Shown here in pieces: positions 21,844 to 39,484 of a stretch of DNA of 64,000 nucleotides (position 1 is its first letter; each line of letters opens with the position of its first letter). The DNA comes from Chelativorans salis (lineage in GTDB: Bacteria > Pseudomonadota > Alphaproteobacteria > Rhizobiales > Rhizobiaceae), in the NCBI RefSeq assembly GCF_025336525.1, contig NZ_JAOCZP010000006.1, forward strand, positions 62,001 through 126,000, read 5' to 3'. A program made the position numbers and the translations under genes. The notes under the pieces are model-generated. The model did no database searches, was not told where the DNA came from, and was given only the letters and a program-made list of their open reading frames with translations.

Positions 21844-21854
21844 TGGTAATACCA
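21844..21854. promoter_or_regulatory. GntR/FadR-type operator TGGTAATACCA
   Basis: Perfect 11-bp palindrome of form TGGT-N3-ACCA, 40 bases upstream of the epimerase gene that starts at 21804. FadR and PdhR of Escherichia coli bind this half-site arrangement. It covers the -10 element of the predicted promoter, so binding should repress. One of five such sites in the window. The surrounding gap 21805-22126 (322 bases) holds this site, the one at 22024 and the two divergent promoters; no gene is seen in it. Confidence 0.65.
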
Positions 21855-21872
21855 AAATGAACAATGGGTCAA
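21846..21872 (-). promoter_or_regulatory. Predicted promoter of the epimerase gene
   Basis: On the minus strand, TTGACC (21872-21867) is followed by a 15-bp spacer and TATTAC (21851-21846). The ABC importer promoter at 31798-31824 has the same arrangement, with TTGACG, a 15-bp spacer and TAATAC, and both share CATTT-type sequence before the -10. The spacer is shorter than usual, but its repetition supports it. Confidence 0.5.
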
Positions 21873-22023
21873 GGATGCAACGGCTGTATCAATGGCAAGG
21901 GACAGGACCTGAAGGAACGCTGGAACATGCGAAAAAAGGAGAGAATTTGCCTCCTCAGCGCTCCCTTTCCTGCATCCTTGCTGCAACGAGAAAAGTGCGC
22001 TAGAGCTTCCCTTCATGCATATT

Positions 22024-22034
22024 TGGTCGAACCA
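22024..22034. promoter_or_regulatory. GntR/FadR-type operator TGGTCGAACCA
   Basis: TGGT-N3-ACCA palindrome, 92 bases before the second isomerase start (22127), ahead of the operon that includes the GntR gene. The same 11-mer recurs at 31965. A leader hairpin with 8-bp arms (GCGCCTGC/GCAGGCGC) lies between it and the gene at 22072-22100. Confidence 0.6.
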
Positions 22035-22126
22035 GTTACTCAGAGACTGGACGGCTAGAGGAGGAAAAGGCGCGCCTGCCCTAAAGGTCTGCGCAGGCGC
22101 AAGGACCGGATTCGGGGAGGAACACC

Positions 22127-23014
22127 ATGCATCTTTCGACGCACAACTGGATGCGCGCGGAGCCACTGGAAACGACGCTGCGGCGGATCAAGCAATTCGG
22201 CTACGAGAGCATCGAGATATCCGGCGAGCCGGCCCAGTATGACGTGAACGAGACCCGCGCGCTCCTCAAGGAGCATGGCATCCGCTGCTGGGGTGCGGTG
22301 ACGCTGACGCTCGGCGAACGCAACCTGGCGGCCAAGGACGAAGGCCAGCGTGCCCGTTCCGTCGACTATATGAAGAGCGTCATCACTATGGTCTCGGAGC
22401 TTGACGGTGAAATCGTCACCCTGGTGCCGGCGACCGTCGGCAAGGTCGTGCCGGACGGGACCGAGGAGGAAGAGTGGAGATGGGTGGTGGATGCCACCAA
22501 GGAGTGCTTCGCCCATGCCCAGGCCAAGGGTGTGCGGGTGGCGATCGAGCCGCTCAACCGCTTCGAGACCTATCTCTTCAATCGCGCGGCGCAGGCGCTT
22601 GCCCTGGCAGAGGCAGTGCATCCCGACTGCGGCGTGTGCCTCGACGCCTTTCACCTCAATATCGAGGAGGAAGATATGTACGAGGCGATCCGGCTCGCCG
22701 GAAAACGCCTCTACGATTTCCACGTGGCGGATAACAACCGCTTCGCCTGCGGGCTAGGCATGCTCGACTGGGAAAAGATCATCGGCACTCTGAAGGAGAT
22801 CGGCTATGACGGCGCGCTCACCAACGAGTTCGTAGCGCCCGTCGATCGCACACCGGCGGCGAAATATCCCAACATGGTGGAGCGCGACCCGGTCGACATC
22901 CCGCCCGAGCAGCTCAAGTTCATCCAGGATCACGGCTCCAGCCTTCTGACGGAGGAGTTTTATTCCGACCAGATGCGGATCACGGCCGAAACGATCCTGC
23001 CGCTCATCAGATAA
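22127..23014 (+). CDS. Sugar isomerase/epimerase, tagatose-3-epimerase-like TIM barrel (second copy)
   Basis: 295 residues; ATG 22127 follows GGGGAGG. Metal-site residues are E141 (AIEPLNRFETY), D173 and H176 (CLDAFHLNIEE), H199 (YDFHVADNN) and E234 (LTNEFVAP). It is clearly a paralogue of the divergent protein at 20953 (both have E-x-LNRFE and D-x-FHxNIEE) but longer at the C-terminus. It opens an operon with the enolase-superfamily enzyme, GntR regulator and hydroxyacid dehydrogenase. The pair may catalyse two successive epimerisations of one sugar or sugar acid. Confidence 0.88.
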   Translation: MHLSTHNWMRAEPLETTLRRIKQFGYESIEISGEPAQYDVNETRALLKEHGIRCWGAVTLTLGERNLAAKDEGQRARSVDYMKSVITMVSELDGEIVTLVPATVGKVVPDGTEEEEWRWVVDATKECFAHAQAKGVRVAIEPLNRFETYLFNRAAQALALAEAVHPDCGVCLDAFHLNIEEEDMYEAIRLAGKRLYDFHVADNNRFACGLGMLDWEKIIGTLKEIGYDGALTNEFVAPVDRTPAAKYPNMVERDPVDIPPEQLKFIQDHGSSLLTEEFYSDQMRITAETILPLIR

Positions 23015-23046
23015 GCGGCCTCAGGCGGCGGGTCGGGGGAACGGGC

Positions 23047-24219
23047 ATGCGGATCAAGAAGGCAGAAGCGTGGTGGGTGCGCATACCCATCGAGGAAAGC
23101 CGCCAACACCGCAGTGATTTCGGCCAGACGGCCACCTTCGACGCGGCGATCCTGCGCATCGAGACCGACGATGGCCTCGTCGGCTGGGGGGAAGGCAAGA
23201 ATGCGGCGGGGAGCGCCGGCACCTACGCCGCACTCGTCCATCTTCTCAACCACGAGATCTGTCCGAGGCTGATCGGCCGCGACCCGACCGACATAAGCAT
23301 CATCTGGGAGATGCTCTATAACGGGGTGCGACACGAGACGGCGGCCGCCAGTGGCCACGCCATGCCGGTGCTTGCCCGGCGCGGGCTGACGGTGGCGGCC
23401 ATCAGCGCTGTCGACATCGCGCTGTGGGACATCCTGGGAAAGTCCGTCGGCCAGCCGGTATGGAGGCTTCTCGGCGGCCGCAAGGCGGAGCGCCTTGCGG
23501 CCTACGCCTCCGGCGGCTGGGCGGGAGCGGAGACGATCGGCGAGCAGCTACGGGCCTATGTCGGGACCGGCGGCTTCAAGGCGGTCAAGATGCGCGTCGG
23601 CGCCCAGGACGGGCCGGTGCAGGCGTCGGCTGCACGCGTGCGCGCGGCGCGCGCGGCGCTTGGTCCGGAAATCGATCTGATGGCGGATGCGCACGGTACC
23701 TATACGGTGGCCGAGGCCAAGCGCTTCGCCCATCTCGTCGCCGACTGCGATCTTGCCTGGTTCGAGGAACCGGTGATCGCCGACGACAAGAGGGGCATGG
23801 CGGAAGTCCGCGCCTCAAGCAGCGTTCCCATCGCTGCCGGCGAAAGCGAGGCGACGCGGTTCGCTTTCCGCGAGCTTGCCGTATTGAGATCGGCGGACAT
23901 CTTCCAGCCCGATCCCGGCTTCTGCGGCGGCATCACCGAGACCATGCGCATCGGTGCGCTTGCCAGCGCCTTCAACCTGCGTCTGGCACCGCATTTGTGG
24001 GCCGGGGCGCCTTGTTTCTTCGCCGGCTTGCATGTATGCGCGGCCTCGCCGGCGAGTTTCATCGTCGAATATTCCCTCGGCGCCAATCCCATGATCCACG
24101 ACCTGATTGAGGAAAAGGTGGAGGTGAGCGAGGGCATGGTCCAGATTCCGGAAAAGCCGGGCCTCGGTTTCACCATACGCGAAGAATTCCTGGAGGCGCA
24201 CGCGCAGAAGAGCTCATGA
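23047..24219 (+). CDS. Mandelate racemase/muconate lactonizing enzyme family protein (enolase superfamily)
   Basis: 390 residues. An N-terminal capping domain (~1-125) is followed by a beta/alpha barrel. The metal ligands are D214 (LMADAHGTYT), E240 (WFEEP) and E266 (AAGESEATR). Candidate bases are K181 in FKAVKMRVG and H316 in LAPHLWAGA. This set is typical of sugar-acid dehydratases of the MR subgroup, such as those acting on gluconate-type acids. It lies 32 bases after the isomerase gene and overlaps the GntR start by four bases. Inferred role: dehydration or epimerisation of the sugar acid handled by this operon. Confidence 0.88.
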   Translation: MRIKKAEAWWVRIPIEESRQHRSDFGQTATFDAAILRIETDDGLVGWGEGKNAAGSAGTYAALVHLLNHEICPRLIGRDPTDISIIWEMLYNGVRHETAAASGHAMPVLARRGLTVAAISAVDIALWDILGKSVGQPVWRLLGGRKAERLAAYASGGWAGAETIGEQLRAYVGTGGFKAVKMRVGAQDGPVQASAARVRAARAALGPEIDLMADAHGTYTVAEAKRFAHLVADCDLAWFEEPVIADDKRGMAEVRASSSVPIAAGESEATRFAFRELAVLRSADIFQPDPGFCGGITETMRIGALASAFNLRLAPHLWAGAPCFFAGLHVCAASPASFIVEYSLGANPMIHDLIEEKVEVSEGMVQIPEKPGLGFTIREEFLEAHAQKSS

Positions 24220-24920
24220 AGGAGAACAACCTCCTGCCGGATTTGGCGGCCTATCTCTATTCCCGCTCCAACGCGGACAACGGACGAACACCGTCCGAAC
24301 GCGAGCTGGCGGAGCATTTTTCCGTAAGCCGCGGCCAGGTCCGCGAGGCCCTAGCGATCCTCGAGGCCATGCGCATCGTTGAGCGCCGTGCCAAGTCTGG
24401 CATCTATCTGACAACGCGCCAGGCGAGCGTCGAGGCGATGGCGCTGTTTGCCAAGGCAGGCGTGCCGCTCGACCCGATCCAGATCTACGAGACGGTGGAA
24501 TTGCGCAAGATCCACGAGATCAAGGCGGCGGAGCTTGCGTGCGAACGCGCGACGGAGGAGAACTTCGCGCGGCTGCGCGAGATCCTGAACGCCTCGGAGC
24601 AGCAGCTTGCCGCCGGCGAAGGCCTGTGGCGAGAGGACCGCGACTTCCATCTGGAGATCGTACGCGCCACCCAAAACAGCGTCTTCCATAAGGTGTGCAG
24701 CGTCTACTACCTGATGGGAGAACAGCGCCTGCCGATCTATTTCAGCGATCCGGAGCGGGCGCGACGCTCGCATGCCGAGCATATCCAGATCTACGAGGCG
24801 CTCCTGCGCCGCGACGGCAATCTGGCGCAGGCTTTGATGAGCGCGCATCTCAAAGGGGCGGAGAGCTATTGGAAGGGCCTGATCGGCGGCGTAGAGTCCG
24901 AGGCCGTGGAGCAAGCATAG
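24216..24920 (+). CDS. GntR-family transcriptional regulator, FadR/FCD subfamily
   Basis: 234 residues; the ATG overlaps the preceding stop (ATGA). The winged helix covers residues ~1-70 (TPSERELAEHFSVSRGQVREALAILEAMRIVERRAKSGIYL). The FCD effector domain follows, with a predicted metal site around RDFHLEIVRATQN and SHAEHIQIYEAL. It sits inside the catabolic operon it probably controls. FadR/PdhR relatives bind TGGT-N3-ACCA, and five copies of that palindrome lie near the promoters here, one in front of this operon. It is the best candidate for the regulator of the whole 20.9-39.5 kb group. Confidence 0.9.
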   Translation: MKENNLLPDLAAYLYSRSNADNGRTPSERELAEHFSVSRGQVREALAILEAMRIVERRAKSGIYLTTRQASVEAMALFAKAGVPLDPIQIYETVELRKIHEIKAAELACERATEENFARLREILNASEQQLAAGEGLWREDRDFHLEIVRATQNSVFHKVCSVYYLMGEQRLPIYFSDPERARRSHAEHIQIYEALLRRDGNLAQALMSAHLKGAESYWKGLIGGVESEAVEQA

Positions 24921-24931
24921 GTGCGGGTCCC

Positions 24932-25906
24932 TTGCCGATTATCCTTTCCACCAACGCGCTTCATCCGCGCGCAGAAGCGATGCTGGCCGAGGCCGGCGAA
25001 TTGCGCATAGCGAGCAATGCCAAACCGGAAACACTGCTTGAAGAAGGCCGCGAGGCCGACGTTGTCATCGTCCGCGCGCCCCTGCCTGCGCCGCTTTTTT
25101 CCGCCGCACCCCGCTTGCGCGCCGCCATCCGCCATGGCGCGGGGCTCGATATGATCCCGGTCGAAGCGGCAACGGCAGCGGGCGTGCTGGTTGCCAATGT
25201 GCCGGGCGTCAATGCGCGTGCGGTGGCAGAGCACGTGTTCCTGGTCACGCTAGCGCTTCTCCGGCGCTTCCGTCCGATGGACTGCGACCTGAGGGACGCG
25301 GGATGGTCCGCCGGCCGCGCCCATGCCGACAACGGTGCCGAGCTCGCCGGCCGCACGATGGGCATCGTCGGCATGGGCAATGTCGGCCGCGCCGTCTTCC
25401 GCATCGCGCGCGGTTTCGGCCTGGATGTGCTAGCCAATACACGCAAGCCGGCGACGTTGCCGGAAGGCGCGCTCGCGGCAAGTCTCGACCAGCTCGCCGA
25501 GAAAAGCGATATCGTCGTCCTGTGCTGCCCGCTGACCCCGGAGACGCGGGGCCTCATCGGACGGGAGCGCCTTGCGCGCATGAAGCCCTCGGCCCTGCTG
25601 GTCAACGTCTCGCGCGGCCCCGTCATCGATGAACAAGCGCTCATCGCCGCACTTGGCGAGGGCCGTATCGCGGGTGCCGCACTCGACGTTTTTGACGTTC
25701 ATCCGCTGTCCGCCGATCACCCCTATTTCACATTCGACAACGTTGTCCTAACGCCGCACGCGGCCGGCATCACCGATGAAAGCATGATGAGGATGGGAAC
25801 GGGCGCGGCCGAAGAGGCGATCCGCGTGCTCAATGGACAATTGCCCGAGAACTTATGTAACCCAGAGGCGGTGGAGCGTTATCGGAAGCGCTTTCCGGCG
25901 GAGTGA
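24932..25906 (+). CDS. D-isomer-specific 2-hydroxyacid dehydrogenase family protein
   Basis: 324 residues from TTG 24932 (MPIILSTNALHPRAEAML); no ATG or GTG fits in this frame after the GntR stop, 11 bases away. The NAD-binding motif GMGNVG spans 147-152. Of the catalytic residues, R228 (NVSRGPVID) and H276 (LTPHAAGIT) are present. The usual Glu of the DVFxxEP motif is replaced: the sequence reads DVFDVHPL, with His at 257. Some relatives carry Gln there, so activity is not excluded. Likely oxidises or reduces a 2-hydroxy acid in the sugar-acid pathway. Confidence 0.85.
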   Translation: MPIILSTNALHPRAEAMLAEAGELRIASNAKPETLLEEGREADVVIVRAPLPAPLFSAAPRLRAAIRHGAGLDMIPVEAATAAGVLVANVPGVNARAVAEHVFLVTLALLRRFRPMDCDLRDAGWSAGRAHADNGAELAGRTMGIVGMGNVGRAVFRIARGFGLDVLANTRKPATLPEGALAASLDQLAEKSDIVVLCCPLTPETRGLIGRERLARMKPSALLVNVSRGPVIDEQALIAALGEGRIAGAALDVFDVHPLSADHPYFTFDNVVLTPHAAGITDESMMRMGTGAAEEAIRVLNGQLPENLCNPEAVERYRKRFPAE

Positions 25907-25987: not shown

Positions 25988-27067
25988 CTATCCCCCGTGC
26001 CTCAGGCTGAGCCCGCTAGCGCCATCGAAAAGAACCACCTTTTCGGGGTTCCATGCAAACCGTACCGTCTCGTCCACCGCGACATTCGTCCGAGCCGAGA
26101 CGGTGGCGCGCAGCACAGCATCGCCGGCATGCAGGGTGAGGATTTTTTCCACGCCGTGGTTCTCCACGTCGTGCACCATCGCCTCGACAGGTGCTCCCGA
26201 TTCGACGGTGAGGTCTTCCGGGCGGATGCCGAAGACGAGCGGCTGCCCTTCCGAAACCGCTCCCGCCTGACCGTTCAGCGGCAGTTCGAAGCGCTTCGGC
26301 GCAACGACGGCGCGTCCCTTCACCAGACGGCCGTCGAGGAGGTTCATCGGCGGCGAGCCGACGGAACGGGCGACGAAGGTGTTGCGCGGGTTGTTGTAGA
26401 TTTCATAGGGCGTGCCCGTCTGCACCAGCCGGCCCCTGTCCAAAACGCCGATCTTGTCGCCCATCGACATGGCCTCGATCTGGTCGTGCGTGACGAATAG
26501 AAAGGTAGCACCAAGCGTCATCTGCAGGTTTTTCAGTTCCGTGCGCAGCGCCTCGCGCAGCTTGGCGTCGAGTGCGGACAAGGGCTCGTCCATCAGGAAG
26601 ACGCGCGGCTTGCGCACGATGGCGCGACCGATGGAGACGCGCTGCATCTCGCCGCCCGAAAGCCTGTCGGTCTTGCGGTCGAGAAGGTGCTCAATGCGCA
26701 GGATTTTTGCCGCGCGGGCTACCTGCTCCTTAATCTCCTCCGACTCGACGCGGCGGATCTTCGCCTTCAAGGGAAATTCGAGATTCTCGCGCACCGTGTA
26801 GCGCGGATAGAGCGAGTATTGCTGCAGCACCAGCGCCACGTCGCGCTCGGCCGGGCCCCAGTCGCTAACATCCGCACCATCGATGAGGATTTTTCCTTCT
26901 GTCGGCCTTTCGAGACCGGCAATCAGCCTGAGCGTCGTCGTCTTGCCGGCGCCCGTCTCACCGAGCAAGACGAAAAATTCGCCGTCGGCGATCTCCAGGT
27001 CGAGATTGCGGAGCGCCGTCTGCGCGCCGAACTTCTTGGTGACGCGTTTGAGCTCGATATGGGCCAT
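25988..27067 (-). CDS. ABC importer ATP-binding protein (MalK/UgpC-like), second ATPase of the operon
   Basis: 359 residues from ATG 27067, which overlaps the preceding stop (TAATG). Walker A is GETGAGKT at 36-43, an unusual form of GPSGCGKT. The ABC signature is LSGGEMQ in place of LSGGQ. Walker B (VFLMDEPLSALDAKLRE) and the C-terminal regulatory OB-fold (FGIRPEDLTVESG) are present. With the next gene upstream it forms two distinct ATPases, as in the glycerol importer GlpSTPQV of Rhizobium leguminosarum. It energises sugar or polyol uptake. Last gene of the operon. Confidence 0.93.
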   Translation of the reverse strand: MAHIELKRVTKKFGAQTALRNLDLEIADGEFFVLLGETGAGKTTTLRLIAGLERPTEGKILIDGADVSDWGPAERDVALVLQQYSLYPRYTVRENLEFPLKAKIRRVESEEIKEQVARAAKILRIEHLLDRKTDRLSGGEMQRVSIGRAIVRKPRVFLMDEPLSALDAKLREALRTELKNLQMTLGATFLFVTHDQIEAMSMGDKIGVLDRGRLVQTGTPYEIYNNPRNTFVARSVGSPPMNLLDGRLVKGRAVVAPKRFELPLNGQAGAVSEGQPLVFGIRPEDLTVESGAPVEAMVHDVENHGVEKILTLHAGDAVLRATVSARTNVAVDETVRFAWNPEKVVLFDGASGLSLRHGG

Positions 27068-28176
27068 TACAACCTCACCCCAAGGGACCTGCCGCTCTCT
27101 ACGTCGAAGAAATGTGCCTGGGCGGGATCGATCCTCACCCACACCTTTTCACCGGGCCGCGGCACGAAGCCTGCTTTCGTGCGTGCCCTCAGCATCTGCG
27201 TGCCGACCTGCAGGTCGATGATGTCGTGCGAGCCGAGCGGCTCTATGATGTGTGCCTCGACCGGCAGGTAGCCCTCCCGGCGCTCGCGCTCGACAAGCAC
27301 GCCCTCCGGGCGGATGCCGAGCGCGAGACCGTCCCCCTTCGCTCCGCCGGCTTCGAGCCGGCCGAGAAGATTTCGCGGGAAGACAAAACCTTCTGCCGCA
27401 CCCGGCATGACGACGCGGGCTTCCGAGTCCGCCTCGGCCACCTGCGCCTCCGCAATGTTCATCACCGGACTGCCGACGAACTGTGCGACAAAGAGATTGG
27501 CAGGATGGAGATAGACTTCGTCCGGCGAACCCACCTGCTGCAGCACACCCTCGTTCATGATGACGATGCGGTCGGCGAGCGCCATCGCTTCCACCTGATC
27601 GTGGGTGACATAGACGGTGGTGGAACCCTGTTGCATGTGCAAGCGCTTGATCTCGGTGCGCATCTCCTCGCGCAGCTTCGCGTCGAGCGCACCGATAGGC
27701 TCGTCCATCAGAAGCGCCTTGGGGCTGCGCACCAGCGCGCGACCGATCGCAACGCGCTGCATGTCACCGCCCGACAGGGCCGACGGACGGCGCTTCAGGA
27801 GCGGCGCGATCCGCAGCACATCCGCCACCTGCCGCACCGCCCGGTCGATCTCCGCCCTGCTTTGCCCGGTTGCGCGCAGGGGGAAGGCTATATTTTCGTA
27901 GACGGTCATGTGCGGGTAGAGCGAGAAGGACTGGAACACGAAAGCGATGTCGCGGTCGGCTGCCTTCAGGTGCTGAACCACCTTGCCGTCGATCAGGATA
28001 TCGCCCTCATCGATCGTCTCGAGGCCGGCGACGGCACGTAGCGTCGTTGTCTTGCCGCAACCCGACGGCCCCAGCATGACGATGAACTCGTTGTCCTCGA
28101 TCACGAGGTTCATGTCCTTGATGACCTGAACCTCGCCGAAGAATTTCTGCACGTCGCGCAGTTCGATGTGTGTCAT
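27067..28176 (-). CDS. ABC importer ATP-binding protein (MalK/UgpC-like), first ATPase of the operon
   Basis: 369 residues. Walker A GPSGCGKT at 36-43, signature [14 protein letters not shown] (Asp where most members have Gln), Walker B LLMDEPIGALDAKLREE, and a C-terminal OB-fold (LGIRPEGVLVER). Start ATG 28176 overlaps the stop of the small membrane-protein gene, and its own stop overlaps the next start. The two ATPases differ clearly and probably form a heterodimer. Substrate unknown. Confidence 0.94.
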   Translation of the reverse strand: MTHIELRDVQKFFGEVQVIKDMNLVIEDNEFIVMLGPSGCGKTTTLRAVAGLETIDEGDILIDGKVVQHLKAADRDIAFVFQSFSLYPHMTVYENIAFPLRATGQSRAEIDRAVRQVADVLRIAPLLKRRPSALSGGDMQRVAIGRALVRSPKALLMDEPIGALDAKLREEMRTEIKRLHMQQGSTTVYVTHDQVEAMALADRIVIMNEGVLQQVGSPDEVYLHPANLFVAQFVGSPVMNIAEAQVAEADSEARVVMPGAAEGFVFPRNLLGRLEAGGAKGDGLALGIRPEGVLVERERREGYLPVEAHIIEPLGSHDIIDLQVGTQMLRARTKAGFVPRPGEKVWVRIDPAQAHFFDVESGRSLGVRL

Positions 28177-28394
28177 TCCGCCAGTCTCCCCTCATGCGCA
28201 TCCTCCTCCGGCGCCTCCTGCTCGGGCGGAATGTGGGACGTTATGATGAAGGAGACGAGCCCGATGAGGGTGATCGTCACGCCGTAACGGTGCAGGAACA
28301 GGTTCCAGGGCTGGCAAAGCGCGATGATGCCGAGGATCATCACGGTCTGCGCACCCGGCACGAGATACTTCTGGTTCAGCCTGCGGAAGCTCAT
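28173..28394 (-). CDS. Small membrane protein in sugar ABC operon (73 aa)
   Basis: 73 residues with two predicted membrane helices (VMILGIIALCQPWNLFL and GVTITLIGLVSFIITSHI) and an acidic, soluble C-terminal tail (PPEQEAPEEDAHEGRLAE). It overlaps the genes on both sides by four bases (ATGA each), so it is certainly translated as part of the operon. The R. leguminosarum glycerol ABC operon also has a small membrane-protein gene, but sequence similarity to that protein is not evident. It may be an accessory subunit of the permease. Confidence 0.75.
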   Translation of the reverse strand: MSFRRLNQKYLVPGAQTVMILGIIALCQPWNLFLHRYGVTITLIGLVSFIITSHIPPEQEAPEEDAHEGRLAE

Positions 28395-29347
28395 TTGCGG
28401 ATCGCTCCGAAGGACATGCCGCGCAGGAGATGGTTGCGAAGCAGGAAGGTGAAGATGGCGACCGGCAGCAGGAACAAGAAGGTGCCGGCGGCGATGGTCG
28501 TCCAGTCGGTCAGGCCGGAGCCGACCTGGGCGGGAATGAAGGGCGGCGCAGTCTGGGCATCCCGGTTGGTCAGCATCAGCGCGAAGGCATATTCGTTCCA
28601 GGCGATGATGAAGCAGAAAACACCCGTCGCGGCGATGCCGGTCGCCGCCTCCGGCAGCACGATCTTGAAGAAAGCCTGCATGCGTGTGTAGCCGTCGACG
28701 AGGGCAGCTTCCTCATACTCCCTCGGAATCTCGTCGATGAAGCCCTTCATAAGCCACACCACGAAGGACAGATTGAAGGCGGTATAAAGGATGATCAGCC
28801 CGAGATGCGTGTCGGTCATGCCCACCGCGCGGTACATGAGGAACATCGGGATCGCCACGACCACGGGTGGCAGCATGCGCGTCGACAGGATGAAGAACAG
28901 CCAGTCCTGTTCGCCCGGCACCCTGAAGCGTGAGAAGCCGTACGCCGTCAACGTGCCCATCGAGACGGCGAGCAGGGTACTGGTGACCGCGATGATCAGG
29001 CTGTTGAGGAACCGGTCGGGATAGGCGGAAAGCTGAACGCTGTCGCCCACGCGCAGCACGCGCTCGCCGCCGTCCAGAATCCTTTTTTCCCACCAAGGTG
29101 CCGCCTCGTAAACCTCCTCGTCGACGGGCTGGGTGAGTTGGACGCGCTTGGTGAACAGCTTGATGAAGGGCGTAATCTCCGGCTGGAATACGACCGTCGG
29201 CGGCACGGTGGTGGCCAGCGCCCGCGGCTTGAAGGCCGTTGTGGCGATCCAATAGATCGGCGCCAGAAAGATGATGGTGGTGACGATGACGGCCACGATG
29301 GCGAGCCGGTTCGCGATCCTCTGGCGCGGTGTCTGGACGGCGGCCAT
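28391..29347 (-). CDS. Carbohydrate ABC transporter permease (MalG-like)
   Basis: 318 residues, six or seven helices. The binding-protein-dependent transport EAA loop is EYEEAALVDGYTRMQAFFKIVLPEA near residue 215. A long periplasmic stretch between helices 1 and 2 (residues ~40-115) is larger than in MalG and may contact the binding protein. It overlaps the small membrane-protein start by four bases and follows the partner permease by one base. Confidence 0.93.
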   Translation of the reverse strand: MAAVQTPRQRIANRLAIVAVIVTTIIFLAPIYWIATTAFKPRALATTVPPTVVFQPEITPFIKLFTKRVQLTQPVDEEVYEAAPWWEKRILDGGERVLRVGDSVQLSAYPDRFLNSLIIAVTSTLLAVSMGTLTAYGFSRFRVPGEQDWLFFILSTRMLPPVVVAIPMFLMYRAVGMTDTHLGLIILYTAFNLSFVVWLMKGFIDEIPREYEEAALVDGYTRMQAFFKIVLPEAATGIAATGVFCFIIAWNEYAFALMLTNRDAQTAPPFIPAQVGSGLTDWTTIAAGTFLFLLPVAIFTFLLRNHLLRGMSFGAIRK

Positions 29348-29348
29348 C

Positions 29349-30281
29349 TCAGCGCTCCTTCACGCGGTTGAGATATTTGATGTAGATGTTGGTGATCGCG
29401 ATCACGACGATCAGCATGATGTAGGCGAGTGCGCAGGAAAGCCCCGTCTGCCATTCCTGGAAGGCCATCTTGTAGAGGCGGATGGCGATCACCTCGGTGG
29501 TCGGCTGGCCGCTCATGATGAAGGGAAGGTCGAAGCTCTTGAACGCCTCCATGGTACGGAAGATGAGGGCGATCAGTAGCATCGGAGCGACCAGCGGCAG
29601 CGTGATGCGCGTGAAGGTGTACCAACTCGAGGCACGGTCGATCGCCGCTGCCTCGTAAAGGTGCTTGGGCACTGCCGAGAGGCCCGCCAACGACAGGAGC
29701 ATCACGAAGGGCGACCACATCCAGATATCGGTGATGGCCACCGCGTAGAGCGCCATGTCGGGATTGGAAAGCCAATCGAACCGGCCGAGGCCGAGTGCAT
29801 AGTTGATGATGCCCCAGGACGGATCGTAGAGCAGCTTCCAGAAGAGGCCGACGACGGCCATCGACATCATCATCGGCAGGAGCAGAAGCGTGGTGAAGAG
29901 CCCCTTGAAGGGGAACGCCCGGTTGAGCAGCAGTGCGATACCGAAGCCGACGATCATCTGACCGCCCACCGAGACGATCACGTATTTCGCCGTGACCGTG
30001 AAGTTGCGCCAGATGTTCGGGTCGGAAAGGAGCCGCTTATAGTTGTCGAGGCCGACGAAGTTCGCCGGCGCACTGACAGACGCACGGAAGTCGGTGAAGG
30101 AATAGCCAAGCGAATAGAGCAGCGGGAAGATGTTGAAGACGATAAGGAAGACGATCGTCGGAATGATGAATACGTTGCGGATCGTAAGATCGCTCCAGCC
30201 GCGGGCAGCAGCGCGGGAGCTGGGATCCAGCCTTTCAAGGGCGATCGTCGTCACGACCCGGTTCCTTTCCACTTCAGCCAT
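29349..30281 (-). CDS. Sugar ABC transporter permease (MalF-like)
   Basis: 310 residues, six helices. The EAA loop reads HLYEAAAIDRASSWYTFTRITLPLVAP at ~205-230. The N-terminal cytosolic segment of ~35 residues precedes helix 1 (VFIIPTIVFLIVFNIFPLLYSLG). It forms the channel with the following permease. It is separated from the binding-protein gene by a terminator-like hairpin. Confidence 0.94.
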   Translation of the reverse strand: MAEVERNRVVTTIALERLDPSSRAAARGWSDLTIRNVFIIPTIVFLIVFNIFPLLYSLGYSFTDFRASVSAPANFVGLDNYKRLLSDPNIWRNFTVTAKYVIVSVGGQMIVGFGIALLLNRAFPFKGLFTTLLLLPMMMSMAVVGLFWKLLYDPSWGIINYALGLGRFDWLSNPDMALYAVAITDIWMWSPFVMLLSLAGLSAVPKHLYEAAAIDRASSWYTFTRITLPLVAPMLLIALIFRTMEAFKSFDLPFIMSGQPTTEVIAIRLYKMAFQEWQTGLSCALAYIMLIVVIAITNIYIKYLNRVKER

Positions 30282-30292
30282 GGCAGATTGCT

Positions 30293-30326
30293 AAAAAAGG
30301 GCGGAGGGAGCAGGTGCCCCCTCCGC
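30293..30326 (-). terminator. Terminator-like attenuator between ABC binding protein and permease
   Basis: On the minus-strand transcript, arms GCGGAGGG and CCCTCCGC (8 bp, 10-nt loop) are followed after CC by six T (30298-30293). It lies 11 bases after the binding-protein stop at 30338. Partial termination here would give more binding protein than membrane subunits. Confidence 0.6.
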
Positions 30327-30337
30327 TTTCCCCGCCC

Positions 30338-31648
30338 TCAATCGAGACGGCCATACCGCTTGAACGTCTCTTCCCAATCCGTGGCAAGCCCGTCGAGGGC
30401 CTCTTCCGCGGTGCCCTCACCGCCGACAACGTAGGGATAGACACGGGTATTCATCTGCGTGAGCAGCTCCGCGTATTCCGGCACCGCCCAGAAGTCCTTC
30501 ACGATCTGCATCGACTGAAAGAAGGCCTCGTTAAAGGGGGTGGCGTTGCGGAATTCCTCCGACTCCAGAACAGCAGCGTGGCAGGTGTAGCCGCCGAGCG
30601 CGGCCCATTTCTGCTGCACGTCCTCACGGATGAACCACTCCAGGAACTTGAACGCTTCCTCCTTGTTCTGCGAATAGCTGACGATCGACATCCCCTGCCC
30701 GCCGAGGGCAGCATGGTGCGCGCCCGTCGGTCCGGGCGGGTTGACGAAGTAGCCGGTCGCATCCGCGTGCGGGTTGGTCGCCGGATTGGCGAGTGCCGGG
30801 AAGAAGGCAAAGTAGTTCATGCTCATCGCCGCCAGGCCCTCGGTGATCGCCTGGTTGTTCTCCAGGAAGAACGTCTTGCCCCAGTTGGGCGGCGTGAACT
30901 GGTAGAGCTCGCGATACATCTCGAGCGCCTGCACGTTCTCCGGCGAATTGGTGATGCCCTGCACCTGGAAGGTCTCGTAATCGCCGAGCTCGCCCCCATA
31001 GGTGAAGATCGTCTGCTCGACGCCCATGATCAGACCGTCATAGGAGTTGTCTGTATAAAGGGCGATGCCGTAGCGGCCCTCGTCCGGGCGGTGGAAGAAC
31101 TCGGCGATATCGCGAAGCTGCTGGTAGTTCTCCGGCACCCCGAGCTCGTAGCCGTACTTCTCCTGGAAGGCCGCCTTCTCCTCTGGGTCCTCGAACCAGT
31201 CCTTGCGGTAGGCCCAGCCGTTGGCGTCGCCCTCGGTCGGGATCGCCCAGTACTTGCCGCTCGCCTTCGGATATTCGGCATAGGACTCGACTGTCGCGGG
31301 AACGAAGACCTCGGCGAGATTGTGCTCCTCGAAGAACTCCGTCAGGTCGACATAGTGACCGCCCTCGGAACCAGCGCCCAACCATTGGGAATCGCCGACC
31401 ACCAGGTCATAGGCGTCGCCGTGGGCGTTGAATTCCGCGAAGGCTTTGGTCTGGAAGTCCGCCCAAGGGGTCGTCTCGACCCTGACGGTGACGCCGGTTT
31501 CGGCGGCGTACTCGTTAACCAGTTCCTGCAGATAGTTAGCTGGATCCCACTCGGCCCAGAAGATGGTGAGCTCCTGCGCGAACGCCGACGTTCCGCTGGA
31601 CAAAGCAAGGCTTATCCCGGCAAGCATGCCGGTCATTTTCATGCGCAT
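30338..31648 (-). CDS. Extracellular solute-binding protein of sugar ABC importer (family 1)
   Basis: 436 residues from ATG 31648, chosen because GGGAGG lies at good distance. The signal peptide runs about 1-25 (MTGMLAGISLALSSGTSAFAQE). The mature protein has a typical type I sugar-binding fold (ELTIFWAEWDPANYLQELVNEY at the start; aromatic-rich ligand cleft). Periplasmic; captures the substrate for the two permeases and two ATPases downstream. The promoter has two TGGT-N3-ACCA operators, so expression is likely controlled by the GntR at 24216. The ligand is unknown. Confidence 0.93.
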   Translation of the reverse strand: MRMKMTGMLAGISLALSSGTSAFAQELTIFWAEWDPANYLQELVNEYAAETGVTVRVETTPWADFQTKAFAEFNAHGDAYDLVVGDSQWLGAGSEGGHYVDLTEFFEEHNLAEVFVPATVESYAEYPKASGKYWAIPTEGDANGWAYRKDWFEDPEEKAAFQEKYGYELGVPENYQQLRDIAEFFHRPDEGRYGIALYTDNSYDGLIMGVEQTIFTYGGELGDYETFQVQGITNSPENVQALEMYRELYQFTPPNWGKTFFLENNQAITEGLAAMSMNYFAFFPALANPATNPHADATGYFVNPPGPTGAHHAALGGQGMSIVSYSQNKEEAFKFLEWFIREDVQQKWAALGGYTCHAAVLESEEFRNATPFNEAFFQSMQIVKDFWAVPEYAELLTQMNTRVYPYVVGGEGTAEEALDGLATDWEETFKRYGRLD

Positions 31649-31795: not shown

Positions 31796-31806
31796 TGGTA
31801 TTACCA
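31796..31806. promoter_or_regulatory. GntR/FadR-type operator TGGTATTACCA
   Basis: TGGT-N3-ACCA palindrome, 148 bases upstream of the binding-protein start; its reverse complement is identical to the site at 21844. It overlaps the -10 of the predicted promoter. The gap 31649-31981 (333 bases) contains this site, the one at 31965 and the promoter; no gene is seen. Confidence 0.65.
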
Positions 31807-31964: not shown

Positions 31965-31975
31965 TGGTCGAACCA
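31965..31975. promoter_or_regulatory. GntR/FadR-type operator TGGTCGAACCA
   Basis: Identical 11-mer to the site at 22024, inside a slightly larger palindrome (TCTGGT...ACCAGA). It lies six bases past the TetR stop and about 317 bases upstream of the ABC binding-protein start, so it may serve as an auxiliary operator for looping. Confidence 0.55.
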
Positions 31976-31981: not shown

Positions 31982-32629
31982 TCAGCCTTTCTTCGAGGAC
32001 CTTGCCTCCTCCACCGCCGCGCGCACTAGCGCGCTTGCAGCCCACTGCGCCACGGCTTGCGTCCGGCCAGCGTCGAGGCCCCAGATATCCTTCAGGACAA
32101 TCAACGTCTCGACGCCGAAGGTCAACGACAGGGCCTGCGCCAGCCGGTCAACCTGCCCCTTGGAAAGCTCCCCCTTGAGAGGTGCCAGCGCTTGCCGCAG
32201 AAGGTCGACGCGGTGACCGCGCGTGAACTGCGGCTCGTTGCCGAGCGTGCCGGCCTGACGTCCCGCCCACTCCTCCAGCGACAGTTTCAGCGCTGCCTTG
32301 AAGGTAGCTTCAAACTCCTCGATGCGCGGCAGCGAGCTTTCGAAAAGATCGGCCACGCGCTCACCAGCGTCGGCCGAAGTCGATCGCCAGGTCAGGATTG
32401 GCCCCAGCGCCTCGTCGACGACTGCATGCACGAGGGCGGCCTCACTGGGAAAATAGCGATATGCGGTGGCGCGCGATACGCCGGCGGCCTCCGCAACCTC
32501 GCTCACCGACGGCGTGACGCCGGCCTGCATCAGCCGCGTCGCCGTCTCCAGCATCAGCCGCCTGGTCCGTGCCCGCGGCCCCCGCTCGGTCTCCTCGACC
32601 GGTTCTGATTGTTGACGTGAGACGTCCAT
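31982..32629 (-). CDS. TetR/AcrR-family transcriptional regulator
   Basis: 215 residues from ATG 32629 (MDVSRQQSEPVEETERG); the longer frame upstream runs through the operator and is unlikely. The helix-turn-helix is at ~20-70 (VTPSVSEVAEAAGVSRATAYRYFPSEAALV). The ligand domain follows and ends in an Arg/Lys-rich tail. No good Shine-Dalgarno precedes the ATG; the start sits within a dyad, so the message may be nearly leaderless. It is divergent from the Tm-1-like genes and probably represses them. Confidence 0.87.
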   Translation of the reverse strand: MDVSRQQSEPVEETERGPRARTRRLMLETATRLMQAGVTPSVSEVAEAAGVSRATAYRYFPSEAALVHAVVDEALGPILTWRSTSADAGERVADLFESSLPRIEEFEATFKAALKLSLEEWAGRQAGTLGNEPQFTRGHRVDLLRQALAPLKGELSKGQVDRLAQALSLTFGVETLIVLKDIWGLDAGRTQAVAQWAASALVRAAVEEARSSKKG

Positions 32630-33960: not shown

Positions 33961-33968
33961 GACACCGC

Positions 33969-34823
33969 ATGCCCGCCATCCCCCGCACGACAATCCTGGA
34001 GAAATTCCGCGCTATGATCGCCGAGGGTCGGCCGATCGTTGGCGGCGGCGCGGGCACAGGCCTTTCCGCCAAGGCGGAGGAGGCTGGCGGCATCGACCTC
34101 ATCATTATCTACAATTCCGGCCGCTACCGCATGGCCGGTCGCGGCTCGGCCGCTGGCCTGCTCGCCTATGGAAACGCCAACGAGATTGTCAGGGAGATGG
34201 CCGTCGAGGTGCTGCCGGTGGTGAGAAACACGCCGGTGCTGGCCGGCGTCAACGGCACCGACCCGTTCGTGCTGATGCCGCAGTTCCTGGCCGAACTTAA
34301 GGCGATGGGCTTCTCCGGCGTGCAGAATTTTCCCACCATTGGCCTGTTTGACGGCCGCATGCGGCAGAGCTTCGAGGAAACCGGTATGGGCTACGGTCTG
34401 GAGGTCGACATGATCGCTGCCGCCCACGAGCTCGACCTTCTGACAACGCCCTACGTCTTCAATACGGAAGAAGCCGCGGCCATGACCAAGGCAGGGGCCG
34501 ACATCATCGTCGCCCATATGGGCGTGACCACCGGCGGCACGATCGGCGCCACCTCGGCCAAGTCCCTCGATGAATGCGTCGGCGAGATCGAGGCAATTGC
34601 TTCCGCCGCGCGCGCTGTGCGCGAGGACGTCATCGTACTGTGTCACGGTGGGCCGATCGCCATGCCGGAGGACGCGCGCTACGTCCTGGAACGCGCTGAG
34701 AGCTGCCACGGCTTCTACGGCGCCAGCTCGATGGAACGCCTGCCGGCCGAGGTGGCGATCCGCGATCAGATCGCCAGCTTCAAGGCGCTGCCAGTTCGGG
34801 TGCCAGCTTCAGCAGGAGGATGA
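33969..34823 (+). CDS. TIM-barrel protein of the phosphoenolpyruvate hydrolase-like family (Tm-1 C-terminal domain homologue)
   Basis: 284 residues, starting eight bases after the UPF0261 stop. Family stretches are [36 protein letters not shown] and [15 protein letters not shown], with a final [12 protein letters not shown]. In tomato Tm-1 this domain is fused behind the UPF0261 domain; here the two are separate, adjacent genes. The chemistry is not established, and the PEP hydrolase name comes from fold relatives only. Confidence 0.87.
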
Positions 34824-34824
34824 G

Positions 34825-35241
34825 ATGAGCGGCATGGAAAAAATTTTCGTCTATCCGGAGGAGGTCGACGCCTTCGCCTTCGACTGGGGGCGGCTGGCCC
34901 TGACGGTGGGACCGGAGGTGAACGGTGCCGGGCGTTTTTCCGGTGGCGTGGTCGACCTCGAAAAGGGCCAGGGCCATGCACGCCACAACCACCCCGGCGC
35001 GGAGGAGATCATCTTCGTGATCGCCGGCACCGGCGAGCAGATGGTCGAGGACGAGGAAGGTAATCCGGTCGTGCATCAGGTCCGGCCCGGCTGCACGATC
35101 TACGTACCCGAAAGCCGCTACCACTCGACGCTCAATACGGGCGAGGGACCGATGCAGCTTTTCGTGGTTTACTCCCCGACCGGCCCCGAGCAGGCGCTGC
35201 GGAAACTGCCTGATTTCCGGCTGGTGCCGGCCAAGGGATAG
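34825..35241 (+). CDS. Cupin-domain protein
   Basis: 138 residues, single-domain cupin. Motif 1 appears as HARHNHPGAEEIIFVIAGTGE (His, His and Glu metal ligands) and motif 2 as PGCTIYVPESRYHSTLN. ATG 34825 is one base past the preceding stop, with AGGAGG upstream. It probably binds a metal and acts as an isomerase or sugar-binding enzyme in the Tm-1-like operon. Confidence 0.85.
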   Translation: MSGMEKIFVYPEEVDAFAFDWGRLALTVGPEVNGAGRFSGGVVDLEKGQGHARHNHPGAEEIIFVIAGTGEQMVEDEEGNPVVHQVRPGCTIYVPESRYHSTLNTGEGPMQLFVVYSPTGPEQALRKLPDFRLVPAKG

Positions 35242-35268
35242 GCCGCACCGGCCGAGCGAGGTTCTGTG

Positions 35269-35817: not shown

Positions 35818-36363
35818 ATGATCCGATCAATCGCGAGCGCAAAGCTCGCCATGGGCGCCTTGTGCGTCATTTTTTCCGCCTTGTCGGCCACTGCCGGGCC
35901 GATACCGGTGCCGAAATTCCGCTCCGCGGTGGCGCCGGCCTATCTGAGTTACAGCAAGGAAATCGAGTGCCTGGCGCGGGCGATCTACTTCGAAGCAAGA
36001 GGAGAATCCCGCGACGGCCAGAGAGCCGTGGCGCACGTGGTTCTCAACCGGGTGGAGAGCGGCTTCTATCCAAACTCGATCTGCGGCGTGGTGTATCAGA
36101 ACGACCACCTGAGGGATGCCTGCCAGTTCTCCTTCGCCTGCGACGGCACCCCCGACCGGATAAAAGACCCCGAAGCGTACGAGACCGCGGAAACGATTGC
36201 CAAGCGAAGCTTCGCACGCGACGGCTGGTGGCGCGTTATTAACAGCGACCTCGCTCGCTCGACCCACTACCATGCCGACTATGTGAAACCTTGGTGGGCG
36301 AAGAAACTAGAGCGGACCGGTCAGATCGGGCGGCATATCTTTTACTATACCGCCACGATGTAA
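35818..36363 (+). CDS. Cell wall hydrolase, SleB family
   Basis: 181 residues with an N-terminal signal peptide or anchor (about residues 8-26, AKLAMGALCVIFSALSATAG). The Hydrolase_2 domain covers ~50-180: CLARAIYFEARGES with the catalytic glutamate, QRAVAHVVLNRV, and CQFSFACDG. Homologues cleave peptidoglycan in the manner of spore cortex-lytic enzymes. Stand-alone gene; cell envelope maintenance is the likely role. Confidence 0.88.
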   Translation: MIRSIASAKLAMGALCVIFSALSATAGPIPVPKFRSAVAPAYLSYSKEIECLARAIYFEARGESRDGQRAVAHVVLNRVESGFYPNSICGVVYQNDHLRDACQFSFACDGTPDRIKDPEAYETAETIAKRSFARDGWWRVINSDLARSTHYHADYVKPWWAKKLERTGQIGRHIFYYTATM

Positions 36364-36543
36364 CCCGGAAGCGTGCCTGATCCGGCCTGTATCGGCACAA
36401 GGATAGGGACGACCCCCGAGCGGGAATGGCTCATACCGCTGAGGGATGGCCGCCTGCACGGCCGGCATGACGATCATTGTCATTTCCCGGATTTCGGCAG
36501 ACACTGGATTGCGCTATCCGCGCGCAAGCTCTGGGAGGAAGCA

Positions 36544-37794
36544 ATGACGAGGACAATTGCGGCTTCGCTGGCCATGTTGATCGGCACCACGGCGCTGGCT
36601 TATGGTCAGCAGCAATCGGACAATCTCGAGCGGCTGAGCTCTTTCAAGACCACCGGCACCACCAAGTTTACCGAGATCGAGCAGGGCGGAGAGAAAGCCG
36701 AGGCTATCAACCGTACGCTCGAAAAGATCAAACTGCCTGACGGCTTCCAGATCAGCCTTTATGCAATCGTGCCCGATGCCCGTCACATTGCAATCGGGCC
36801 GCAAGGCGTGGTCACATTCGTCGGCACCCGCAAGACAAAAGTCTGGGCCGTGACCGATCGCGATAAGGATCGCGTTGCCGATGAAGTCAAGGACTTCGCG
36901 CCGCCGCTGGCCATGACGGTACCCAACGGGCCGTGCTTCTCGCCGGAGGGAGTGCTCTACATCGTCGAGCAGAACCGTGTGATCGCCTATCCGGCTGCCG
37001 AATTCTTCTACGAAAGCCCCGACGTTGCCGCCAGCGAGATGGTGAAGCAAGGCGAACTGATCCCGGTCGAGGAGGAAAGCTATAACCACACCGCTCGCGT
37101 CTGCCGTGTCGGGCCCGACGGCAAGCTCTACATTTCGCTCGGCCAGCCCTTCAATGTTCCGCCGCCGGAGAAGCTGGATCTCTACAATGAGCATGGCATC
37201 GGCGGCATTATCCGCATCAACCAGGACGGCACCGGCCGCGAGGTCTATACCTATGGCGTGCGCAACTCGGTCGGCCATGATTTCAATCCGGCCAATGGCG
37301 ATCTCTGGTTCACCGACAATCAGGTGGATGGGATGGGTGATGACATCCCGCCTGGTGAACTCAACCGGCAAACGGAAGCTGGCCAGCATTTCGGCTTTCC
37401 CTGGTATGGCGGAGGCTCGGTGCGCACGGAGGAATACAAGGGCGAGGAACCGCCGGAAGACGTGGTCATGCCGGCGGTGGAAATGGACGCTCACGCGGCC
37501 GATCTCGGCATGACCTTCTACACCGGGCGGCAATTCCCCGCCAAATATCGTGGCGGCATCTTCTCCGCTCAGCACGGCTCGTGGAACCGCACCACACCAA
37601 TTGGCGCGCGGGTGATGTTCACCGCCGTCAAGGAGGATGGCACCGCCGGAGAGACGGAGGTCTTCGCGGAAGGTTGGCTGAACGAGAACGGCGAATATCT
37701 CGGCCGCCCGGTCGATGTGGCGCAGTTGCATGACGGCTCCATCATCGTCTCCGACGATCTGGTGGGGGCGCTCTACCGCATATCGTACGAATAG
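36544..37794 (+). CDS. Soluble sugar dehydrogenase-like beta-propeller protein (glucose/sorbosone dehydrogenase family)
   Basis: 416 residues from ATG 36544, preceded by GGAGGAAG. Signal peptide ~1-22 (MLIGTTALAYGQQQ). Propeller features include FSPEGVLYIVEQNRVIAYP, YNHTARVCRVGPDGKLYISLGQP and HDFNPANGDLWFTDNQVDGMGDD. PQQ-dependent soluble glucose dehydrogenase and L-sorbosone dehydrogenase share this fold. A cytochrome c gene follows and could take the electrons. The periplasmic substrate is not known; PQQ binding is inferred. Confidence 0.85.
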   Translation: MTRTIAASLAMLIGTTALAYGQQQSDNLERLSSFKTTGTTKFTEIEQGGEKAEAINRTLEKIKLPDGFQISLYAIVPDARHIAIGPQGVVTFVGTRKTKVWAVTDRDKDRVADEVKDFAPPLAMTVPNGPCFSPEGVLYIVEQNRVIAYPAAEFFYESPDVAASEMVKQGELIPVEEESYNHTARVCRVGPDGKLYISLGQPFNVPPPEKLDLYNEHGIGGIIRINQDGTGREVYTYGVRNSVGHDFNPANGDLWFTDNQVDGMGDDIPPGELNRQTEAGQHFGFPWYGGGSVRTEEYKGEEPPEDVVMPAVEMDAHAADLGMTFYTGRQFPAKYRGGIFSAQHGSWNRTTPIGARVMFTAVKEDGTAGETEVFAEGWLNENGEYLGRPVDVAQLHDGSIIVSDDLVGALYRISYE

Positions 37795-37811
37795 GAAGGG
37801 TGGGCGTGAGC

Positions 37812-37840
37812 GGTCCCTCGCGTATTCGGCACGAGGGACC
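37812..37840. promoter_or_regulatory. Hairpin between sugar dehydrogenase and cytochrome c genes
   Basis: Perfect 9-bp arms GGTCCCTCG and CGAGGGACC with an 11-nt loop, 17 bases after the dehydrogenase stop. No T run follows. It may stabilise the upstream message or reduce read-through. Confidence 0.4.
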
Positions 37841-37896
37841 ATGTGTTCAAGTACCGCCTGCCGCCAAGCGGCGGGCGTCTTCTAGTGAGCACTGAG

Positions 37897-38229
37897 ATGG
37901 CATCGATCGTCAAACTGCTTCTCGCCGCATCTCTCCTCGCGGCATTGCCAGGCGCGGCCGCCGCAGCCGATATCAAGGCGGGTCGGCAGATCGCAAGTGC
38001 TCAGTGCCGCACCTGCCACGGGCTCGACGGGATCGCACAAATCCCCGTCGCGCCTCATCTGGCGGGCGAAAGCGAGATCTACCTGCAGACGCAGTTGAAA
38101 GCGTTCCGCTCCGGCAAGCGGACGAACGAGATGATGGACGTGGTGGCGAAGAACCTCACGGACGACGACATCGCGAACGTCGCAGCCTGGTATTCGGCGA
38201 TCAAGATTTCGGTCGAGATGCCGGAATAG
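37897..38229 (+). CDS. Class I cytochrome c
   Basis: 110 residues from ATG 37897, which gives a regular signal peptide (residues 1-24, ending GAAAAAD); a GTG at 37843 would add 18 charged residues. Heme-binding motif CRTCH at 37-41; the axial methionine is probably one of the pair in RTNEMMDVV. Periplasmic. The position after the sugar dehydrogenase suggests it is that enzyme's electron acceptor, passing electrons to the respiratory chain. Confidence 0.87.
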   Translation: MASIVKLLLAASLLAALPGAAAAADIKAGRQIASAQCRTCHGLDGIAQIPVAPHLAGESEIYLQTQLKAFRSGKRTNEMMDVVAKNLTDDDIANVAAWYSAIKISVEMPE

Positions 38230-38233
38230 TGCA

Positions 38234-39418
38234 TCACCCCCCGCCCCTGTTCCAGCCCCTGCCCCGGTCGCCGAACATTTCGTAACCGTCGGCCGTCACC
38301 GCCACCGTGTCTTCCAGCTTGATGAAACCACGGGTGGGATGAAGCATGGTGGTCTCCACCGAGAGCACCATCCCCGCCTCCAGTGGGCGCGCGGCGTCGA
38401 CACCCTCGTAGGTGACGGGATGGTTGGTCACCAGGAACGGCACCTCGTGCGTGATCAACCCGATACCGTGGGCGAAGAAATCGGTGAAGTCGGCAACAGG
38501 TGAGGCCTTCAGGGTCTCTTGCGCGTGGGCGATCACGTCGCCGCCCAGCGCGCCAGCCCTGACCTTGGAGAAGGCTGCCTGCTGCACCGCCTCCACCTCT
38601 GCCAGGAGATCCTGGAGTTCCGCATCCGGCTCGCCGAGCACGCCCATGCGGCAAAGGTCGCCGATGTAGCCTTGGTAGTTGCCGCCCGAGTCGATCGACA
38701 GCACCTCGCCCCGCGCCCAGGCCTGCGGTGAGGCGGCCCGGTTGTGACTGGCGCCCAGCGTCAGCAGGCAATATTCGAAGGTGAGGCCACGTTCCGTTTC
38801 TTCCCGGCGCAACCGTTCGATGATCTCCGTCTTCGTCGTCCCCTCACGCGCCCAGGCAATGGTCGCAAGCATGGAATCCGTGATCAGTTCCGACGCCAGC
38901 CGCAGCTTGTCCAGCTCAGCGGACGTCTTGATTGCGCGCAAGCGCTCCAGCGTGCCGGTGGCATCGACGAAAGAGGCGCCCTCAAGCCGCGCAGTCAGGA
39001 GTTGGTATGCATCGACCGGCAGAAAGGCCGGCTCGATGCCGATGCGTGCGCCTGCCCTACCGATCTTTTGAAGATGCTCCACCGCCATTCTGGTGGCATC
39101 CAGGGTCCCCCAGGCGGCGGGGTGAAATGCCGGCGTCCAGAACGGATTGTTCTGATGCTCGCCCCCCTCCATGCGGTTGGCGACATAGGCCGCCCGTTCC
39201 GGCCGTCCCTTCTCATAGACGACGATGGGGAGATAGCGGCTATGGCCGATGGCATCCATGGCGGCAAAGAAGATGAACTTGTAGCCACCCAGCAAATACT
39301 GCGTGTTGTGCTTGGACGTCGCCAGGAGCACGTCGATGCCTGCCTCTTCCATCAGCCGGTCGAGCCGCTCCGTGTCGAACGGAACATCCAACGCCAGGTC
39401 GTTTTCCTCCTGCATCAT
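38234..39418 (-). CDS. M24-family metallopeptidase (Xaa-Pro peptidase-like)
   Basis: 394 residues from ATG 39418. An ATG at 39424 lies only one base from AGGAGG, while 39418 has a normal seven-base spacing, so it is preferred. N-terminal creatinase-like domain ~1-165; C-terminal pita-bread domain with the five metal ligands in SIDSGGNYQGYIGD (two Asp), AHGIGLITHE (His), SVETT (Glu) and IKLEDTV (Glu). Family members cleave Xaa-Pro bonds or, like creatinase, small amides. A TGGT-N3-ACCA operator lies 56 bases upstream, linking it to the sugar-acid regulon rather than to general proteolysis. Confidence 0.88.
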   Translation of the reverse strand: MMQEENDLALDVPFDTERLDRLMEEAGIDVLLATSKHNTQYLLGGYKFIFFAAMDAIGHSRYLPIVVYEKGRPERAAYVANRMEGGEHQNNPFWTPAFHPAAWGTLDATRMAVEHLQKIGRAGARIGIEPAFLPVDAYQLLTARLEGASFVDATGTLERLRAIKTSAELDKLRLASELITDSMLATIAWAREGTTKTEIIERLRREETERGLTFEYCLLTLGASHNRAASPQAWARGEVLSIDSGGNYQGYIGDLCRMGVLGEPDAELQDLLAEVEAVQQAAFSKVRAGALGGDVIAHAQETLKASPVADFTDFFAHGIGLITHEVPFLVTNHPVTYEGVDAARPLEAGMVLSVETTMLHPTRGFIKLEDTVAVTADGYEMFGDRGRGWNRGGG

Positions 39419-39473
39419 GCTCATCCCTCCTAATCCGTGCGCTTGCCCGGTACTTTTCGCGCACCGTAGCATC

Positions 39474-39484
39474 TGGTCCGACCA
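39474..39484. promoter_or_regulatory. GntR/FadR-type operator TGGTCCGACCA
   Basis: TGGT-N3-ACCA palindrome in the 5' region of the M24 peptidase gene; very close to the known E. coli FadR core TGGTCNGACCA. Fifth copy in the window. Confidence 0.6.

Follow-up and report, generated by a model that had tools for sequence, protein, structure and literature searches.

A predicted local GntR-FCD regulon with paired operators in a sugar/sugar-acid gene cluster of Chelativorans salis

The local regulons of the FadR subfamily of GntR regulators (DgoR, ExuR, GlcC, LldR and PdhR) share, according to the main text of Suvorova et al. 2015 (PMC4494728), an FCD domain, a TKGT/ACMA palindrome and a regulator that is encoded among its own targets. 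The consensus given there is A/T-flanked and separates GT from AC by 3 nt, and the same text describes double-site divergons, some with a constant inter-site distance, which it takes as a mark of co-operative pairs. Within the GntR superfamily, looping of DNA has been shown for the VanR-type tetramer Atu1419 of Agrobacterium fabrum, an FCD repressor with a metal site of Asn plus three His; its own intergenic region carries two palindromes separated by 190 bp, and electron microscopy showed the loop (PMC7797058). Here we describe a stretch of 64,000 nt from the soil bacterium Chelativorans salis (the window; contig C16:62001-126000 of a genome of 5.66 Mb in 19 contigs), in which five TGGT-N3-ACCA palindromes lie upstream of genes for two isomerases, a sugar ABC importer and an M24 peptidase. 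A GntR-FCD protein encoded at 24216 in the same cluster is very probably the local regulator of this predicted sugar/sugar-acid regulon. An earlier note on this DNA had stated that FadR/PdhR-type GntR proteins are known to bind such a half-site, which agrees with the published consensus (PMC4494728). The half-site class and the local-regulon design are already known for this group; the new point is an unusually rigid operator pair.

The palindrome TGGTNNNACCA occurs in the window at 21844, 22024, 31796, 31965, 39474 and 43563. All five positions reported in the earlier note were recovered, and its gene calls downstream of them hold by profile search. The five predicted operators, for which no strand is assigned, are as follows.

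21844..21854, no strand: O1, TGGTAATACCA, on the -10 of the promoter reading leftward into isomerase A (TTGACC-N15-TATTAC, minus strand)
22024..22034, no strand: O2, TGGTCGAACCA, of the rightward operon of isomerase B, mandelate-racemase-like enzyme, gntR and dehydrogenase, 180 bp from O1
31796..31806, no strand: O3, TGGTATTACCA, on the -10 of the leftward importer promoter (TTGACG-N15-TAATAC, minus strand)
31965..31975, no strand: O4, TGGTCGAACCA, auxiliary site, 169 bp farther upstream than O3 and just beyond the TetR stop codon
39474..39484, no strand: O5, TGGTCCGACCA, a lone site ahead of the leftward M24 gene

The genes that these sites would serve, together with the adjoining TetR gene, are:

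20953..21804, minus strand: isomerase A, xylose-isomerase-like TIM barrel (AP_endonuc_2, profile match); likely O1 target
22127..23014, plus strand: isomerase B, xylose-isomerase-like TIM barrel (AP_endonuc_2, profile match); likely O2 target
23047..24219, plus strand: mandelate-racemase/enolase-superfamily enzyme, probable sugar-acid dehydratase; presumed isomerase B operon
24216..24920, plus strand: GntR-FCD regulator, 234 aa; presumed isomerase B operon
24935..25906 (start provisional), plus strand: D-2-hydroxyacid dehydrogenase; presumed isomerase B operon
25988..31648, minus strand: ABC importer operon; likely O3/O4 target
30338-31648, minus strand: solute-binding protein (SBP) of the importer
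29349-30281 and 28391-29347, minus strand: importer permeases
27067-28176 and 25988-27067, minus strand: the two importer ATPases
31982-32629, minus strand: TetR gene, adjoining O4
38234..39424 (start provisional), minus strand: M24/creatinase-like peptidase; likely O5 target

The sites at 21844 and 31796 do lie, as had been proposed, on the -10 of promoters built alike, whereas it had been overlooked that the sites are paired in each of the two main promoter regions, at distances of 180 and 169 bp. The palindromes are locally dense: the window holds six matches where dinucleotide shuffles predict 0.36 (none of 100 reaches six), while every other spacer (N0-2 and N4-8) gives 0-2 matches. Five sites within 17.6 kb correspond to a Poisson P of 1.5e-7, or 5e-5 when multiplied by the count of windows of this size. 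Three exact copies of the flanked pattern WTYTGGTNNNACCARAW are present in the genome, all of them within the cluster, and allowing one mismatch adds the remaining two cluster sites and three further places; at two mismatches this 17-base pattern is found in 88 places against 73 for a reversed control, which is hardly higher.

Conservation of the sites was examined at the corresponding loci in relatives. The GntR protein has matches at 1e-30 in 25 of 151 genomes, its own included, and is found in many Mesorhizobium as well as Chelativorans and Aquibium genomes. A first set comprised 24 other orthologue loci, one of them (L061) on a contig that was too short, and one locus of a 39% paralogue; a second, named set comprised the best 80 of 118 loci, 78 of which had a usable start of isomerase B. 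Of the 23 complete loci of the first set, 21 have the exact pair at the isomerase region, and in the other two (L048, L055) a single exact site is partnered, 177 bp off, by a site with one mismatch. Upstream of isomerase B, 76 of the 78 named loci carry at least two exact sites, and in the remaining two an exact site has a one-mismatch partner 157-176 bp off. Five of these 76 pairs repeat genomes of the first set, which leaves 93 distinct pairs with the window included, each selected because it has two exact sites. The importer promoters of the named set behave similarly: among 24 SBP matches, with the nine reaching a locus end left out, 13 of 15 have a pair (167-190 bp) and two have one exact site. 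Of 12 leftward M24 genes, counting that of the window, 11 have an exact site, and none was found near five rightward M24 genes. The spacer is specific in the 80 named loci, where N3 gives 191 sites, every other spacer from N0 to N8 between 1 and 27, and the reversed pattern 10. The flanked consensus derived from 98 isomerase pairs together with 24 importer promoters has the form of FadR-subfamily operators.

Promoter elements are kept along with the sites. The importer promoters that were fetched for genomes with GntR, own included, have the site on the -10 in 24 of 24 cases; TTGAC stands at N15 in 20 of these and at N14 in four. On the O1 side of the 93 distinct pairs TTGAC stands at N16 in 81, at N15 in six and at neither in six; on the O2 side CTTG[CA] is found 46 bp upstream in 75, at 45-49 bp in 11 more and at neither in seven, a position that would put O2 some 10-20 bp downstream of where transcription of the isomerase B operon starts.

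Could these be chance palindromes near promoters? There is no genome-wide enrichment of the motif, since its 37 sites fall below the 68 of the reversed pattern and close to the ~32 expected at the window's shuffle rate, and this count speaks both for chance and against a regulon. The earlier note had named a background frequency of the palindrome as grounds for doubt, and genome-wide that is literally what we observe; the local density and the conservation, however, are not those of background. We reject a chance origin, which we regard as exceedingly unlikely, on the corrected density and on the recurrence of the sites at the same positions in the 93 distinct isomerase regions. The sixth site, at 43563, was set aside because it lies inside a Band_7 gene (43543-44319), and is treated as background. 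We also considered a wider regulon among the 37 sites, six of which belong to the window; the remaining 31, when inspected, proved nearly all to lie in open frames, 14 of the first 15 within frames of at least 300 nt and 16 of the other 16 within frames of at least 240 nt, which is a weak test in GC-rich DNA. One of the latter, C15:45524, looks intergenic yet passes the 240-nt test.

Which protein binds the sites can be addressed by co-occurrence. Among 397 genomes of the order, 23 (own included) carry SBP orthologues of at least 67% identity, and GntR was scored at a cut-off of 1e-60. In all eight importer genes from GntR-bearing genomes an exact site lies on the promoter and is accompanied by a distal one (seven exact, one with one mismatch), while none of the 15 genomes lacking GntR has an exact site within 500 bp (Fisher 2e-6). 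The importer can lie apart from the GntR gene and keep its sites, on other contigs in G047 (L099) and G045 (L103), ~40 kb off in G053 (L102) and ~16 kb off in G072 (L101); in G082 (L100) importer and GntR are both at contig ends, perhaps one cluster split by assembly. In eight fetched importers that are ~55% alike, the 450 bp before SBP contain no exact site. The regulator link that the earlier note had proposed thereby gains comparative support, the predicted sites being kept with GntR and absent without it.

A different regulator might bind the sites instead, either the TetR protein or another FCD protein of the genome. The TetR gene adjoins O4 in most loci, and the genome encodes 41 FCD domains, that at 24216 included, with several outside sites near other FCD genes, so that the half-site class is shared. 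We nonetheless consider such a regulator improbable. The TetR protein is not a likely binder, because loci with TetR and no GntR have no sites (in the SBP upstream regions of L097 in G012 and L098 in G105, nothing is better than three mismatches) and sites are present at L064, L101 and L103, where no TetR match was found at the locus. The presence of this particular GntR predicts exact-site status in 23 of 23 SBP loci, and the locus of the 39% paralogue (L066) has no site.

Assignment to the GntR at 24216 has several points to contend with. One leftward M24 gene, that of L102, has no site; two of the 15 GntR-lacking genomes show a one-mismatch site; second SBP copies of ~61% identity in G088, G224 and G317 were left out of the count; and cross-talk by the FCD paralogues is possible. 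In addition, the 15 GntR-lacking genomes all belong to other families, and descent therefore confounds the co-occurrence. Two genomes serve as counter-checks on descent: G012, of the same genus, has neither GntR nor sites, and G208, of another family, has both. The congener G012 retains orthologues of the importer, isomerase A, TetR and UPF0261, and no GntR was found there at 1e-30.

The protein at 24216 is GntR-FCD by profile search, in agreement with the earlier note, with a GntR winged helix-turn-helix at the N-terminus (PF00392, 42.0 bits, cut-off 27) and an FCD domain at the C-terminus (PF07729, 87.6 bits, cut-off 24.3). Its AlphaFold2 model (predicted local distance difference test, pLDDT, 81; predicted template modelling score 0.66) has seven effector-domain helices from residue 72, of which 72-81 is separate and has a pLDDT of ~68. 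Seven such helices, with the extra one after the linker, mark the FadR group and six the VanR group, as set out in PMC7797058, and Foldseek template modelling (TM) scores are near 0.5 for structures of both groups. Residues D141, H145, H189 and H211 are invariant in 27 of 27 sequences and fit an FCD metal site (Asp/Asn plus three His), matched by order to N137, H141, H192 and H214 of Atu1419. The two proteins are 18-21% identical in the fold match, and Atu1419 differs in being a six-helix VanR-group tetramer that binds ATGTATACAT (PMC7797058), whereas seven helices are modelled here and the motif is TGGT-N3-ACCA. The protein has no orthologue among the named FadR-subfamily regulators, the best NCBIfam match being NanR at 96.5 bits against a cut-off of 260. 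The nearest solved structures, best by sequence and fold, are PmiR (7XP0), E. coli NanR (6ON4) and DhdR (9JPJ), all distant at 25-29% identity in the fold match and TM ~0.5; unlike the palindrome here, NanR is described in PMC4494728 as binding direct repeats TGGTATAW. The main text of PMC4494728 does not contain the words Mesorhizobium, Rhizobium or Rhizobiales, and an earlier prediction in its data files is possible.

The spacing within the operator pairs is nearly constant. The 76 named isomerase pairs are 180 bp apart in 67 cases, 176-181 bp in eight and 143 bp in one (L117, which has three sites with the outer pair 175 bp apart); among the 93 distinct pairs 180 bp is found in 74. The 98 pairs were grouped by inter-promoter sequence at 60% identity into 38 groups, and the representatives are spaced at 180 bp in 20 of 38 and at 176-180 bp in 33 of 38, the rest being at 170, 156, 144, 143 and 139 bp. 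Identity of the middle DNA between groups is 0.49 against 0.47 after shuffling, a low value partly by construction because the groups were formed at less than 60% likeness. In the 34 groups of at least 165 bp the standard deviation of the spacing is 2.0 bp against 11.1 bp for the distance from site to ATG (Levene 9e-10), with four outliers dropped, which favors narrow spacing; over all 38 groups the values are 10.7 and 14.6 (Levene 0.005). The retention of ~180 bp across DNA without other similarity favors cooperative, perhaps looped, repression, since PMC4494728 ties constant distance to co-operative pairs in its main text and Atu1419 loops palindromes 190 bp apart (PMC7797058). We hold cooperative or looped action of the operator pairs to be about an even prospect.

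The same regulator could also act without cooperation, each operator serving its own promoter and the spacing following from back-to-back promoters or from another protein bound between the sites. This is a real possibility, though we lean against it. FadR-group proteins are dimers, and O1 and O2 each stand at a promoter of their own. Divergons with separate sites are the larger FadR class, 71 of 100, in the main text of PMC4494728. Independent sites should however drift, and the group representatives have not done so although the middle DNA is unconserved; no common promoter is seen by eye at O4, yet that site is kept ~170 bp from O3. Further observations tell against cooperation: three distant isomerase pairs are 139-156 bp apart, spacing is less strict in the SBP pairs (159-179 bp in 18 of 20, with 65 bp in L053 and 99 bp in L099), and helical phase, examined over distinct spacings as a proof of looping, is not significant.

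The more specific form of the cooperative reading is a FadR-group repressor that loops DNA, two dimers bridging operators ~17 helical turns (180 bp) apart and silencing two divergent operons, and likewise the importer; we offer it tentatively, at somewhat less than even confidence. In the reading that we prefer overall, whose core, the local regulon, we hold to be very probable, the GntR protein at 24216 would be a self-regulating repressor of a cluster for sugar/sugar-acid import and conversion, its dimer binding palindromes resembling TCTGGT-N3-ACCAGA. At the isomerase A and importer promoters the palindrome over the -10 would block RNA polymerase, while at the isomerase B-gntR operon it would lie just past the start point, and the M24 gene would be served by a single site. 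Two dimers on a pair ~170-180 bp apart would act together, perhaps via a DNA loop, and a small inducer in the FCD domain would release them. For an uncharacterised regulator this yields a predicted operator and regulon together with a mechanism that can be tested, and the near-constant pair is a natural data set on whether FadR-type repressors loop DNA.

The substrate can be named at the superfamily level alone, as none of the ten proteins scanned, the mandelate-racemase-like enzyme at 23047-24219 among them, reached an NCBIfam cut-off. A search of the open-licence literature, whose scope excluded subscription papers and supplementary files, found nothing on this cluster or regulon. Beyond TetR, in order of increasing coordinates, come UPF0261 and PEP-hydrolase-like genes on the plus strand and then M24 on the minus strand. 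The UPF0261, PEP-hydrolase-like and cupin genes (window 32764-35241) travel with the importer in most fetched relatives, and in this genome no exact TGGT-N3-ACCA site precedes them; the TetR protein encoded next to them may control them. Between the cupin and M24 genes there are matches below cut-off to SleB (35818-36363) and to PVC-type heme-binding proteins (36373-37794), and 37843-38229 is presumably a small cytochrome c gene.

Variants of the arrangement occur in relatives. In L050 and L052, which have no isomerase A match, the leftward operator is kept and faces another AP_endonuc_2 TIM-barrel gene, behind which lies a GFO/IDH/MocA gene. In L098, from a genome without GntR, another stretch, AT-rich and partly palindromic (ATCGATTATCGAT), is found at the importer promoter and may be the operator of a different regulator. 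Elsewhere in the Chelativorans salis genome the sites C15:45369/45524, C9:909171 and C16:176433 and the one-mismatch C3:90463 lie ~0.3-3 kb from other FCD domains, and the half-site is probably common to paralogous local regulons because outside sites adjoin other FCD genes. The first two form a second GGT-N3-ACC pair, spaced by ~152 bp, in the interval that separates a GFO/IDH/MocA gene from another SBP gene (at ~5004 and ~5156 of L212, G000 C15:40369-50369); with an FCD domain nearby at C15:42422, this may be a paralogous regulon built in the same way.

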